From positions 1 through 22,385 of the IMG/VR virus record IMGVR_UViG_3300025276_000237: a DNA stretch of 22,385 nt; one strand, written 5' to 3'. Position numbers and translations under genes: made by a program. The notes beneath the pieces were generated by a model, which worked only from the letters and a program-made list of their open reading frames with translations, had not been told where the DNA came from and ran no database searches. Source of the stretch: a virus. Below, piece by piece: positions 19,096-22,385 of this stretch (position 1 is the first letter of the stretch; every line of letters begins with the position of its first letter).

Positions 19096-19521
19096 TTATT
19101 GTATCTTTTTAAATTTACAGTTATCATTGTGCCATCTTTTAATTAGACTAGGTATACTTACCATGTCACAATGATCGCATTTCATTTTACTTCTGCAACC
19201 GTAATGATTATGTCTGTCTTTACTAATCATGTCGTGTATGTTTTCTTTGTGCGTACCTACCCACAAATGATCTGGGTTGCAACATCTTCTATTGTCGCAT
19301 GTATGCAATACACATTGTCCTTTGGGTATGTTTCCCTTATGTATTTCATAAGATACTCTATGTGTAGTTCTCATACCATTGTGATCAGTATCTCTAATCA
19401 TACCGTAACCGATATTGTTTACTGCACCTTGATATTCCCAGCAATCTGTAACTTCGTTATGTTTACACTTACTGTATAAACGTTCTTCTATTGGTGTTCT
19501 TTCGTATCCTCTAGTAGCCAT
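19096..19521 (-). CDS. HNH endonuclease with C-terminal zinc-finger-like motif
   Basis: 141 residues. The N-terminal part, CWEYQGAVNNIGYGMIR at about 27-43, and THRVSYEIHKGNIPKGQCVLH with CDNRRCCNPDHLWVGTHKENIHDM (about 53-98), match the HNH_3/His-Me-finger group: metal-binding Cys70, Cys75, Cys80/81, His73 and His85. A second cluster Cys115-x2-Cys118 ... His131-x3-Cys135 looks like a small zinc finger that may bind DNA. It sits between terminase and portal. In HK97-like phages an HNH protein beside the terminase is needed for packaging, but the form here also matches free-standing homing endonucleases. Ribosome binding site GAGAGGAATAAA before ATG. Which role applies is undecided. Confidence 0.85.
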   Translation of the reverse strand: MATRGYERTPIEERLYSKCKHNEVTDCWEYQGAVNNIGYGMIRDTDHNGMRTTHRVSYEIHKGNIPKGQCVLHTCDNRRCCNPDHLWVGTHKENIHDMISKDRHNHYGCRSKMKCDHCDMVSIPSLIKRWHNDNCKFKKIQ

Positions 19522-19843: not shown

Positions 19844-21289
19844 CTACCAGATAACATGATCTGATTCGTTATCTCGTTTACCCATGATATCTTCCCATGT
19901 AGGTCCTCCTTTATATAAAGGACTATATGGTTCATGTTCTATGCCTGGTCTATTGTAGGCCTGCATTCTTGCATCACTGCCTAAGTATTCTGCGCCTGCC
20001 CAACTGTCATGCTGAATAGGAAACAAATGATGTATGCCGTATCTAATAGAATCACCTAGTCCGTCAATATGCGAATACTTTGCATCAGTATATTTTGTTA
20101 ACTTCTTACGTGTACCATCAGTAAAATGATATGACTGTAATGCTTCTATAAGTTGTACGTCATATGGACTAACTGTTAATCCACCTCTGTTTATAAATGC
20201 GTTACTAGAGTTATCTGTATCTGAGATTAATGGGTTGACTCGCTTACTATTAATAATAGTAAAGCCATACTTCTCAAGTATGATTCTATCAGTGACACCA
20301 AACGTAGATGTTGTGTCTCGGTTTGTTTGTGCACCTGTCATGTCGATTACAGAATAGATTCTACGTCTAGGGTAATCTTCTCGTATCTGTTGTGCTAATT
20401 GTTCTGTACCACAATCTTTGATAGCATAAGATTTAAGTATCTCCATAGTACCGTCGTTACTGTTAGGCTTTGTTACTTGTGCAACTACAGCACACATAAC
20501 TTTTTTGTTAAAGTCGTGAAACGTATAGACATCTCCTAATCTATCGAACACGTCTCTACTATGTACTGCTCTGTTAAATGTATAAAAGAACTGATCAGTA
20601 ACTGACTCCCAACTACACATATAATCTTGTTCAAATTTAAGAGGACTAATAATTCGTTTTTGTTCTTCGATAAAGTCTAAGTTACCACTACGCATTTGCT
20701 TGTAGTTTAAATGTCTGACAATGTATTTGTCTGGATTGTTTTGTGCTAGTGTAAACAAATCAAACAATGGACCATTACCATTGGGCGTAGATATAACAAT
20801 CAATCTACCTTGTGTATCAGGTGAGCCTACTCTAGGTCTAAGTCTGTTTGTAATCTCTTGTAATGTTTCTTGCGAGTATAGTGATGCTTCATCTGCTACC
20901 CACATACCTACGTTTAGACCTCTTAGATTCTCCTTCATCTCAGCAGACTTGCATCGAATGAACACTCCATTTGGGAACTTTATAGTGAGTTCTGAGTTGT
21001 TAATGTCTTTACCATCACGGAGTCCAAAGTTTTCCATGCAACTTTGTTTTAATGGTTCCCAAATAAGTGATTTGATCATAGAACCTGTAGGGGCACTATA
21101 GATAATGTCTTTGCCTTTATGATATCTTTCATCACTCGCAAACAAAGGTAATGCGACAGCGGCCAAGAATGTTTTACCACTACCTACAGGCACAATGTCT
21201 ATGCAATGTTTATTTGACTCTAGCCAGTCATGCATGATAGTAGACTGTTCTCCATATAAGGAGATGTCTATTTTATTTGCTTTTGGCAT
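19844..21289 (-). CDS. terL: Terminase large subunit (TerL)
   Basis: 481 residues. Walker A is VPVGSGKT at 33-40 and Walker B is MWVADEAS at 129-136 (Asp133, catalytic Glu134). The coupling motif is VISTPNG at 165-171. Nuclease acidic residues appear as Asp259 (YTFHDF), Asp316 (YSVIDMTGA) and Asp409 with Asp413 (YSHIDGLGDSIRYG). This is a complete ATPase plus RNase H-like nuclease that pumps and cuts DNA at the portal. The Walker A is early in the sequence, so the N-terminal adaptor is short. The start overlaps the small subunit gene by 17 bases and has no clear Shine-Dalgarno, so coupled translation is likely. No intein or intron is visible. The sequence alone does not settle cos versus headful packaging. 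Confidence 0.95.
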   Translation of the reverse strand: MPKANKIDISLYGEQSTIMHDWLESNKHCIDIVPVGSGKTFLAAVALPLFASDERYHKGKDIIYSAPTGSMIKSLIWEPLKQSCMENFGLRDGKDINNSELTIKFPNGVFIRCKSAEMKENLRGLNVGMWVADEASLYSQETLQEITNRLRPRVGSPDTQGRLIVISTPNGNGPLFDLFTLAQNNPDKYIVRHLNYKQMRSGNLDFIEEQKRIISPLKFEQDYMCSWESVTDQFFYTFNRAVHSRDVFDRLGDVYTFHDFNKKVMCAVVAQVTKPNSNDGTMEILKSYAIKDCGTEQLAQQIREDYPRRRIYSVIDMTGAQTNRDTTSTFGVTDRIILEKYGFTIINSKRVNPLISDTDNSSNAFINRGGLTVSPYDVQLIEALQSYHFTDGTRKKLTKYTDAKYSHIDGLGDSIRYGIHHLFPIQHDSWAGAEYLGSDARMQAYNRPGIEHEPYSPLYKGGPTWEDIMGKRDNESDHVIW

Positions 21290-21629
21290 CGATAACTTTT
21301 AAAGCAGGGACATTCTGATAATCAGGTAACTCACGTTGCGTAAACTTAAAATTGTTTACAAGTGATTGACCCATACTATGAACATCTAGTTCATGTTTGT
21401 CTGCAACGACTTTTGATAATATCATTTTTTCGTATGCTATACGTGCTGTAAAATCACCAGCAATGATACTAGCATGATATCCTTCTGCTAATAATTGTTC
21501 AAAGGGTTTGCCTAACTGTATACTAATCTCTAGTAGAATCTTTTCGCCAGTGATCTTATTGACACTGCCTTTAGGTCTGCCAGAGCCTGGCTGTCTGCCG
21601 CCCTTAACTGGTTTCTTTTTTGTTGTCAT
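21273..21629 (-). CDS. terS: Terminase small subunit, probable
   Basis: 118 residues. The N-terminus KGGRQPGSGRPKGSVNK contains an AT-hook-like GRP core and is the commonest N-terminal signature of phage small terminases (GRPKGSxNK). The body is helical with a hydrophobic stretch (IIAGDFTARIAYEKMILSKVVA) and a C-terminal VPALKVID. It lies immediately upstream of TerL with a 17-base overlap, as expected. It would recognise the packaging site and stimulate TerL. Ribosome binding site GGAGAAAGAAC before ATG, inside the preceding gene (26-base overlap). It is shorter than the ~150-180 residues of most small terminases, but the motif and position agree. Confidence 0.8.
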   Translation of the reverse strand: MTTKKKPVKGGRQPGSGRPKGSVNKITGEKILLEISIQLGKPFEQLLAEGYHASIIAGDFTARIAYEKMILSKVVADKHELDVHSMGQSLVNNFKFTQRELPDYQNVPALKVIDAKSK

Positions 21630-21867
21630 GTTCTTTCTCCATTAACATTTTGAATTTACGATCAAAGATTTGATTTACTAATAATGGTAATTTCTTTTTC
21701 TTTGATTTAAACAATAATGCATTTTGTATTTCTCTAACCTCTAATGGGTCTTCTATACGTGCTAATGCCATTACAAAATGTTTGTAACAAGGTTCGCAAC
21801 ATAAATGTCCTATAAGTTTATTCCATGTAGTACCCATCTTTTTTTCTATTGGTGTAATATCTGTCAT
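21604..21867 (-). CDS. Small protein upstream of terminase, unknown function (87 aa)
   Basis: No family recognised. CCEPC at about 23-27, next to His21 and His30, could bind a metal, and the C-terminal half is Lys-rich (KSKKKKLPLLVNQIFDRKFK). It overlaps the previous gene by four bases (ATGA) and the small terminase gene by 26, so it belongs to the packaging transcript. A DNA-binding accessory is possible but not shown. Confidence 0.65.
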   Translation of the reverse strand: MTDITPIEKKMGTTWNKLIGHLCCEPCYKHFVMALARIEDPLEVREIQNALLFKSKKKKLPLLVNQIFDRKFKMLMEKEHDNKKETS

Positions 21868-22055
21868 AATCTACCCTCATAGTTTCTAAGTAATTCACCA
21901 CAGAGTGATGAGTTAATTAATTTGTTTTTTATTCTGTTTATAGTGTGCATGTTCTTTTGTAAATCATATCCTTCACACTTCTGTTCATTAAGATAATTGT
22001 AATACACAATTAATTGATTAGATGCTAAGTCTGATAAGTCGACTTGATCAATCAT
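21864..22055 (-). CDS. Small hypothetical protein (63 aa)
   Basis: No family recognised. The protein is helical, with an amphipathic middle (LIVYYNYLNEQK, then NMHTINRIKNKLI) and no membrane segment. The start follows the upstream stop by three bases and is preceded by AAAGG, which lies unusually close to the ATG. Ends with a four-base ATGA overlap with the next gene. Part of a tight early cluster of four short genes before terminase. Confidence 0.6.
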   Translation of the reverse strand: MIDQVDLSDLASNQLIVYYNYLNEQKCEGYDLQKNMHTINRIKNKLINSSLCGELLRNYEGRL

Positions 22056-22058
22056 CCT

Positions 22059-22118
22059 TTACTTCCCTGTTGGTCTAGGTCTAGGCTTTGGTTTAGGTCT
22101 TGGTCTGTATGTTGCCAT
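22059..22118 (-). CDS. Candidate nested Arg/Pro-rich peptide (19 aa), internal in-frame start
   Basis: The peptide MATYRPRPKPKPRPRPTGK would start at ATG 22116-22118. AGGAG at 22125-22129 lies six bases upstream, and the surrounding GAGGAGAAAG is among the best ribosome binding sites in the window. It is in frame with the HGGKG protein, so it may be either a second product or just the tail of the longer protein. The sequence alone cannot decide. Confidence 0.4.
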   Translation of the reverse strand: MATYRPRPKPKPRPRPTGK

Positions 22119-22244
22119 ATCTTTCTCCTCTTTTAGTGAATCGTAATCTATGCCTCCAAAGATACGATCCCAGTTGCTTCTATATAATTCATCGTTGGGC
22201 GATCTAGGCTTATCACCTTTTCCCCCATGCCATTGATCAGACAT
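22059..22244 (-). CDS. HGGKG-motif small phage protein with Arg/Pro-rich C-terminal tail
   Basis: I place the start at ATG 22242-22244: GAGAAG lies five bases upstream, and the eight-base overlap with the preceding gene is typical. The in-frame ATG at 22256 would add only MRRY. The product, 61 residues, starts MSDQWHGGKGDKPRSPNDE and contains NWDRIFG at about 25-31. This HGGKG ... Y-x2-NWD-x-IF pattern recurs in small proteins of marine phages near packaging genes, as I recall them; the function is unknown. Unusually, the last 19 residues (from an internal Met) are RPRPKPKPRPRP-like, and a strong internal ribosome binding site precedes that Met. Confidence 0.7.
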   Translation of the reverse strand: MSDQWHGGKGDKPRSPNDELYRSNWDRIFGGIDYDSLKEEKDMATYRPRPKPKPRPRPTGK

Positions 22245-22383
22245 ATATCTTCTCATAATCTGTTTCTATATCTTCTGGGTCAAGTCCATCATAGACTTTC
22301 TTTGTTTTCTTACACTTATATTTAAGTGTACCAAATACAGATAATAGCTTCTGATTATCTGCGTTCCACTTTTCTCTCACCAT
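22237..22383 (-). CDS. Small unknown protein at the right edge (48 aa, possibly 5'-truncated)
   Basis: An open frame from ATG 22381-22383 to TGA 22237-22239, encoding a Lys-rich, helical product with NADNQKLLSVFGTLKYK and KKTKKVYDGLDPEDIE. Only two bases of sequence remain upstream, so the true start may lie outside the window. Its stop overlaps the HGGKG gene start (ATGTCTGA), which matches the coupling style of its neighbours and supports it as a real gene. No family recognised. Confidence 0.55.
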   Translation of the reverse strand: MVREKWNADNQKLLSVFGTLKYKCKKTKKVYDGLDPEDIETDYEKIYV

Positions 22384-22385
22384 CT

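Follow-up and report, generated by a model that had tools for sequence, protein, structure and literature searches.

Does the proline- and arginine-rich end of a small phage gene represent a gene in its own right, or only the tail of the protein in which it is encoded? The window, i.e., the whole 22,385-base virus record that we analyzed, belongs to a tailed phage, since it contains matches to terminase, portal, head, and tape-measure proteins. One of its open reading frames (ORFs), the HGGKG gene, encodes a protein ending in ...KEEKDMATYRPRPKPKPRPRPTGK, and within it a sequence-only reading had noted a strong internal ribosome binding site (RBS) ahead of an in-frame ATG. The peptide starting there, MATYRPRPKPKPRPRPTGK, was likened to proline-rich antimicrobial peptides, with a basic nucleic-acid-binding tail or a once-separate mini-gene fused in frame as alternatives. 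The features of this locus are listed in Table 1.

Table 1. Positions of the HGGKG gene, the mini-gene, and neighboring genes in the window
Feature	Position	Strand	Remarks
Fused ORF, HGGKG domain with (K/R-P)n tail	22059..22256	-	65 aa; 61 aa from the second ATG, 22244
Mini-gene MATYRPRPKPKPRPRPTGK	22059..22118	-	ATG starts at 22118; 19 codons and TAA; stand-alone in L098/L584, L426/L558, L428/L560, L559, and L093
Internal Shine-Dalgarno (SD) core GAGGAG	22125..22130	-	Six bases 5' of the ATG; kept in L001 and L002; unstructured
"geneU", 3' end, ending ...TDYEKIYV	22237..22385	-	Gene upstream of the HGGKG gene
Next gene, MIDQVDLSDLASNQ...	21864..22055	-	In L150 comes after a phrog_2859-like gene, which is absent from the window
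Probable small terminase subunit	21273..21629	-	phrog_18735, E 0.026, weak; position before the large subunit
Terminase large subunit	19844..21289	-	phrog_2, E 7.8e-40; query for fetching 51 relatives

The predicted internal start site in the window

Examination of the HGGKG gene confirmed that GAGGAG and an internal ATG encoding MATYRPRPKPKPRPRPTGK are present, and that this internal SD and start codon share the frame of the longer gene, as in a gene-within-gene arrangement. The six-base spacing reported earlier holds for the core GAGGAG, but not for the ten-base GAGGAGAAAG, which ends two bases from the ATG. Similarly, the strong internal RBS exists but is unexceptional by itself: a well-spaced anti-SD match (5 nt or longer) precedes 8 of the 162 in-frame ATGs located inside genes of the window (and 8 of its 28 gene starts), so that the RBS alone is approximately a 1-in-20 event, and we dropped SD strength as proof of a mini-gene. 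The choice of GAG-GAG is about a 4% choice, since Glu codons in the window comprise 63 GAG vs 269 GAA. The internal start region of the window is unstructured (MFE -1.8 kcal/mol, z 0.48), and predicted structure around the ATG is weak in the window and in three relatives alike (MFE -0.6 to -4.7 kcal/mol) and does not exceed that of shuffled sequences. The coincidence of RBS and ATG gains much strength only once comparative evidence is added.

The HGGKG protein of the window has no match in the Pfam or PHROG families and, in INPHARED, only a single weak match, in Curvibacter phage P26059A (E 0.1); a PDB search with the window protein returned a single match with an E of 1, which is meaningless. 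Elsewhere in the window, a 141-aa ORF between terminase and portal (19096-19521, minus strand) contains CDNRRCCNPDHLWVGT, which we take to resemble an HNH homing-endonuclease motif.

Fused, stand-alone, and absent states in related phages

Scanning viral contigs with the 65-aa protein identified 63 HGGKG loci, each of which was read to its stop. Only two of these, L001 and L002, carry a K/R-P tail, with the remaining 61 ending otherwise, and the tail is therefore not part of the HGGKG family. The fused contigs are the window, L001/L150/L557, and L002/L180/L555, and in all three the frame is open from HGGKG through to the end, demonstrating the fusion. The start signals are retained in this small sample, as both fused relatives keep GAGGAG and the ATG; in L002 the peptide is altered to MKKGYGKPKPKPRPKPGR, and the SD and ATG are nevertheless conserved. 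A tail retained with the ATG or SD lost, the pattern named beforehand as evidence against an internal gene, was found in neither relative. Comparison of L002 with the unfused HGGKG gene of L003 (L003/L571, where this gene is located elsewhere in the operon) gave, in blocks of 15 bases, 10-12 identities across the domain, 6 in the block whose codons form the SD, 9 in the one that includes AACACA-ATG, and 4-5 past the internal ATG. Since identity fades before the ATG and is lost after it, the joint can be placed at the internal start codon or directly beside it.

In relatives, the mini-gene is also found as a short gene of its own in the same syntenic place, just as the sequence-only reading had suggested should be looked for, and this finding supports its proposal of a once-separate mini-gene fused in frame. 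For example, in L098 (one contig with L427 and L584), L426/L558, and L428/L560, MKKSTYKPKPKPRPRPR comes directly after geneU (which ends ...DPEDKETDYEKIYV), and the ATG of MKKSTYKPKPKPRPRPR overlaps the end of geneU in a different frame and has TAAGGAG seven bases 5' of it; the stand-alone mini-gene of the relatives thus starts within the last codons of geneU. In these three contigs a phrog_2859-like gene comes next (E 4.5e-12 in L098). L559 also has MKKSTYKPKPKPRPRPR, with no phrog_2859-like gene, and there the next gene, a MIDNIDLSD gene, corresponds to the MIDQVDLSD gene of the window. The more distant L093 has the order geneU, MYDKKPKPRPKPGPKPKR, and a phrog_2859-like gene (E 7.4e-10). The mini-gene is therefore present without the HGGKG domain at the same place in four contigs and in this fifth, with SDs of TAAGGAG, TAAGGA, and GGGAG among the stand-alone relatives. 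Five close relatives and L093 have a phrog_2859-like gene behind the mini-gene, whereas the window (22055-22059) and L559 lack it. The mini-gene behaves as a unit: HGGKG precedes it in some contigs but not in others, and the same variation is seen for the phrog_2859-like gene on its other side. The five unfused relatives, together with the position of the joint, suggest that the fusion is the derived state, and the short unit of the window would then be a captured gene, since relatives have it by itself at this locus.

The mini-gene is accessory. Thirty-eight of the 51 terminase relatives could be inspected upstream (the other 13 start inside the terminase gene), and six of the 38 contain the mini-gene, two fused and four alone; the proportion is 4 of 21 where at least 1300 bases of upstream sequence are available. 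In L575/L576 and L585, a long ORF with YDIGANIG lies near the large terminase gene, just upstream of it, and in L576 it sits between this gene and a small-subunit-like ORF; YDIGANIG is presumably an FkbM-like methyltransferase motif.

A class of short (Lys/Arg-Pro)n genes in viral contigs

We defined the wider class as RBS-led products of at most 30 aa with four or more K/R-P units; mini-genes of this type, which fall below the size that is normally annotated, are found in many unrelated phages. The pattern RBS-ATG-(K/R-P)4, which the window also matches, occurs in at least 119 stretches of viral contigs; among the matches listed, 95 are in frame and give 80 distinct closed products, of which 57, including the fused L150 and L180, are no longer than 30 aa, and 45 of these 57 have at most 35 open codons ahead of the ATG. 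Control patterns behaved differently in the viral contigs, with E-P giving 70 stretches, 27 products, and 5 short products (only 1 with a short upstream frame), and K-A giving 61 stretches, 21 products, and no short product. Q-P gave 15 stretches and 7 products, with the single short one located within a long frame. In bacterial and archaeal genomes, K/R-P was found in at least 120 stretches, with 25 products and 4 short ones among the matches listed. Fisher tests of the short fraction in viral K/R-P against E-P, K-A, and genomes gave 2e-6, 8e-10, and 1e-6, values that are inflated by related sequences. The motif occurs at a single place in each of 50 records tested, and the reversed pattern in none. 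Taken with their controls, the class counts show a stand-alone type of gene. An unrestricted K/R-P5 scan was not used for counts, as it lumps together mini-genes, long proteins, and long microsatellite-like repeats. Nine INPHARED regions, picked by the neighbor proteins of class members, contain no (K/R-P)3 stretch on either strand, and further cultured-phage searches returned nothing or weak matches only, mostly to tail fibers; the class is therefore known here from IMG/VR contigs only, with the addition of the 4 short bacterial and archaeal genome products.

The 57 peptides are 12-30 aa long (median 18 aa), with a median net charge of +8 (range 0 to +12), and their repeat positions hold 239 Lys vs 39 Arg. 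At least two different Pro codons are used in 52 of the 57, and neighboring third bases are alike in 83 of 221 cases, with 90.4 expected from shuffling; mixed codons, with third bases no more alike than when shuffled, favor selection acting on the peptide over repeat slippage. Tyr is found outside the repeat in 39 peptides (12.1 expected from neighboring proteins), and Y, C, F, or W in 51 (29.4 expected). Tyr or Cys is present on one side of the repeat only in 46 of the 57, on both sides in 4, and on neither in 7, and the window peptide, with Tyr4 at one end of its repeat, fits this class. The one-end rule has a P of 7e-6 on all 57 and 0.001 on the 38 left after removal of similar peptides, but it is gone at the harshest clustering (P 1.0 on 19), which mostly merges peptides through their common repeat, and we therefore describe it as a tendency. 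Two class members, L145:586-672 and L174:4658-4747, differ from the others in joining a basic KP half to an acidic half (MGRKPGPKPKPKPKPAPEPDEPEPEEAA). A Cys-led subset (L075, L157, L069, and L164) has MGCNCGK-KPKP, MGCKPKP, and MCATCGCRKKPKP, and may possess a CxC metal site.

The surroundings of class members, for which we used hand-picked neighbors, are mixed. Among the first 25 families listed, the PHROG-matched neighbors are mostly virion, packaging, or lysis proteins (terminase, head, tail), with others including a DnaC-like loader, RtcB, and unknowns. Terminase (PF03237) is present in 16 of 50 records, and in 8 of these 16 the mini-gene lies within 2 kb of it, with 4.6 expected (P 0.046); significance is absent at 1.5 and 3 kb, i.e., the closeness to terminase is marginal. 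In one record, L177 (G048:4786-5970, plus strand), the frame of the terminase large subunit is broken by one in-frame TAG, which may point to amber recoding in this phage or may be an error.

Proposed mechanism, alternatives, and relation to known systems

We consider it probable, at modest confidence, that a once-independent (Lys/Arg-Pro)n mini-gene became joined behind the HGGKG gene, giving a dual output and, with much less certainty, a peptide that binds a polyanion. According to this proposal, the final 60 bases of the HGGKG gene would be a mini-gene from a wide phage class of (Lys/Arg-Pro)n micropeptides, fused in frame with the joint at its own start codon. As the RBS and ATG are retained, we infer internal-start translation, and the message should yield both an HGGKG-(K/R-P)n fusion and a free 19-residue peptide. 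This peptide would form a stiff, strongly basic arm, since alternating K/R-P is expected to adopt a polyproline-II helix, with the Tyr at one end as a putative contact point, and it would be made from a presumably late operon. It may function as a late cationic arm for a polyanion; a first, tentative guess is that it binds nucleic acid during head assembly or DNA packaging. The mixed neighbors, the marginal closeness to terminase, the accessory status, and an SD strength near chance count against the proposal, and the acidic tail in L145 and L174 is awkward for a pure polyanion binder.

The mini-gene may instead have been captured only as a C-terminal extension of HGGKG, with the internal start disused and the fusion protein doing the binding. 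The frame open to the end in all three fused contigs is in keeping with this, as are the KP-rich stretches of many phage proteins (the long ORFs of the K/R-P5 scan), but the SD and ATG persist in both fused relatives despite divergence of the tail, and relatives encode the peptide without an HGGKG partner, leaving this explanation rather doubtful. Chance low-complexity sequence would account for an SD of a strength found ahead of 8 of 162 internal ATGs; the syntenic stand-alone relatives and the class controls already disfavor it, and we regard it as highly improbable. The short cistron might also act as an unstructured leader, opening up the message and linking its own translation to that of the following gene, in which case the peptide would be irrelevant. 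In line with such a device, 22 of the 57 class members have a stop-start overlap with the next gene, 18 of 57 carry an SD-like motif within their last 20 bases, and the next ORF is no more than 15 bases away in 25 of 56. However, Q-P, which should be about equally unstructured, is rare across the whole collection and short in only 1 of 7 products, the strong Tyr/Cys enrichment and the interchange of K and R point to the peptide, and the downstream gene of the window changed while the mini-gene stayed, making a leader role very unlikely.

The resemblance to proline-rich antimicrobial peptides (PrAMPs) such as oncocin, metalnikowin, Bac7, and drosocin appears partial. The window peptide is similar in length and in its high Pro and basic content (6 P, 4 R, and 3 K of 19), and has a Y-R-P-R-P stretch, which we take to resemble the core of some insect peptides. 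A phage-made analogue could sit in the ribosome exit tunnel and slow host translation, and production inside the cell would bypass the uptake that PrAMPs need. However, Y[KR]P[KR]P is present in only 7 of the 57 class members, the class is biased to Lys and not Arg, and Tyr is C-terminal in 20 of 57, i.e., often at the other end, with the core motif often reversed. Whereas PrAMPs are secreted peptides cut from signal-bearing precursors, the mini-gene is part of a phage operon and encodes no signal, pro-peptide, or precursor. In addition, several copies lie beside late structural genes, where a stop to translation would harm the phage. We therefore think such an analogue quite unlikely. A broader variant, in which phages of many lineages carry one-copy, "one-anchor" (Lys/Arg-Pro)n overlooked peptides of 12-30 residues that act inside the host as PrAMP counterparts by docking to the ribosome or another structured RNA, captured in the lineage of the window as a dual-use HGGKG tail, is also unlikely. 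Apidaecin has been put into T7 (PMC9221748), which is an engineered case.

The proposed fusion of a captured mini-gene has parallels in other systems. In RpnL/RpnS (PMC10327210), an in-frame internal start creates a gene within a gene, and Cas10d/Cas11d is named as a further case in the same source. As in these systems, one frame in the window would give a long product and, by internal initiation, a short C-terminal one; the window differs in that relatives carry the short unit by itself at this locus, and there is no indication of a toxin-antitoxin relation. Adenovirus mu and the internal peptides of phage T4 are short basic peptides of the virion that condense DNA, and the present class, known here from genes alone, would share with them very short length, strong basicity, and late production. 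The class likewise resembles the very short, unannotated genes studied in the field of phage small proteins (Fremin et al. 2022; PMC11323111), and the words "proline," "lysine," and "cationic" are absent from the available portion of the review PMC11323111. No paper on phage K/R-P mini-genes was listed in our literature search, and the class may be undescribed.

Close relatives display the stand-alone, the fused, and the absent state, and the joint falls at a start codon, so that the window offers an unusually clean snapshot of a gene fusion. The target of the peptide (DNA, ribosome, or virion protein) is directly testable, because a basic Pro-repeat peptide with a terminal Tyr or Cys is simple and can be synthesized. 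Many gene callers have a limit of about 30 codons, and the members of the class are shorter than this; provided that the class is real, a recurrent kind of gene is being overlooked when phages are annotated.
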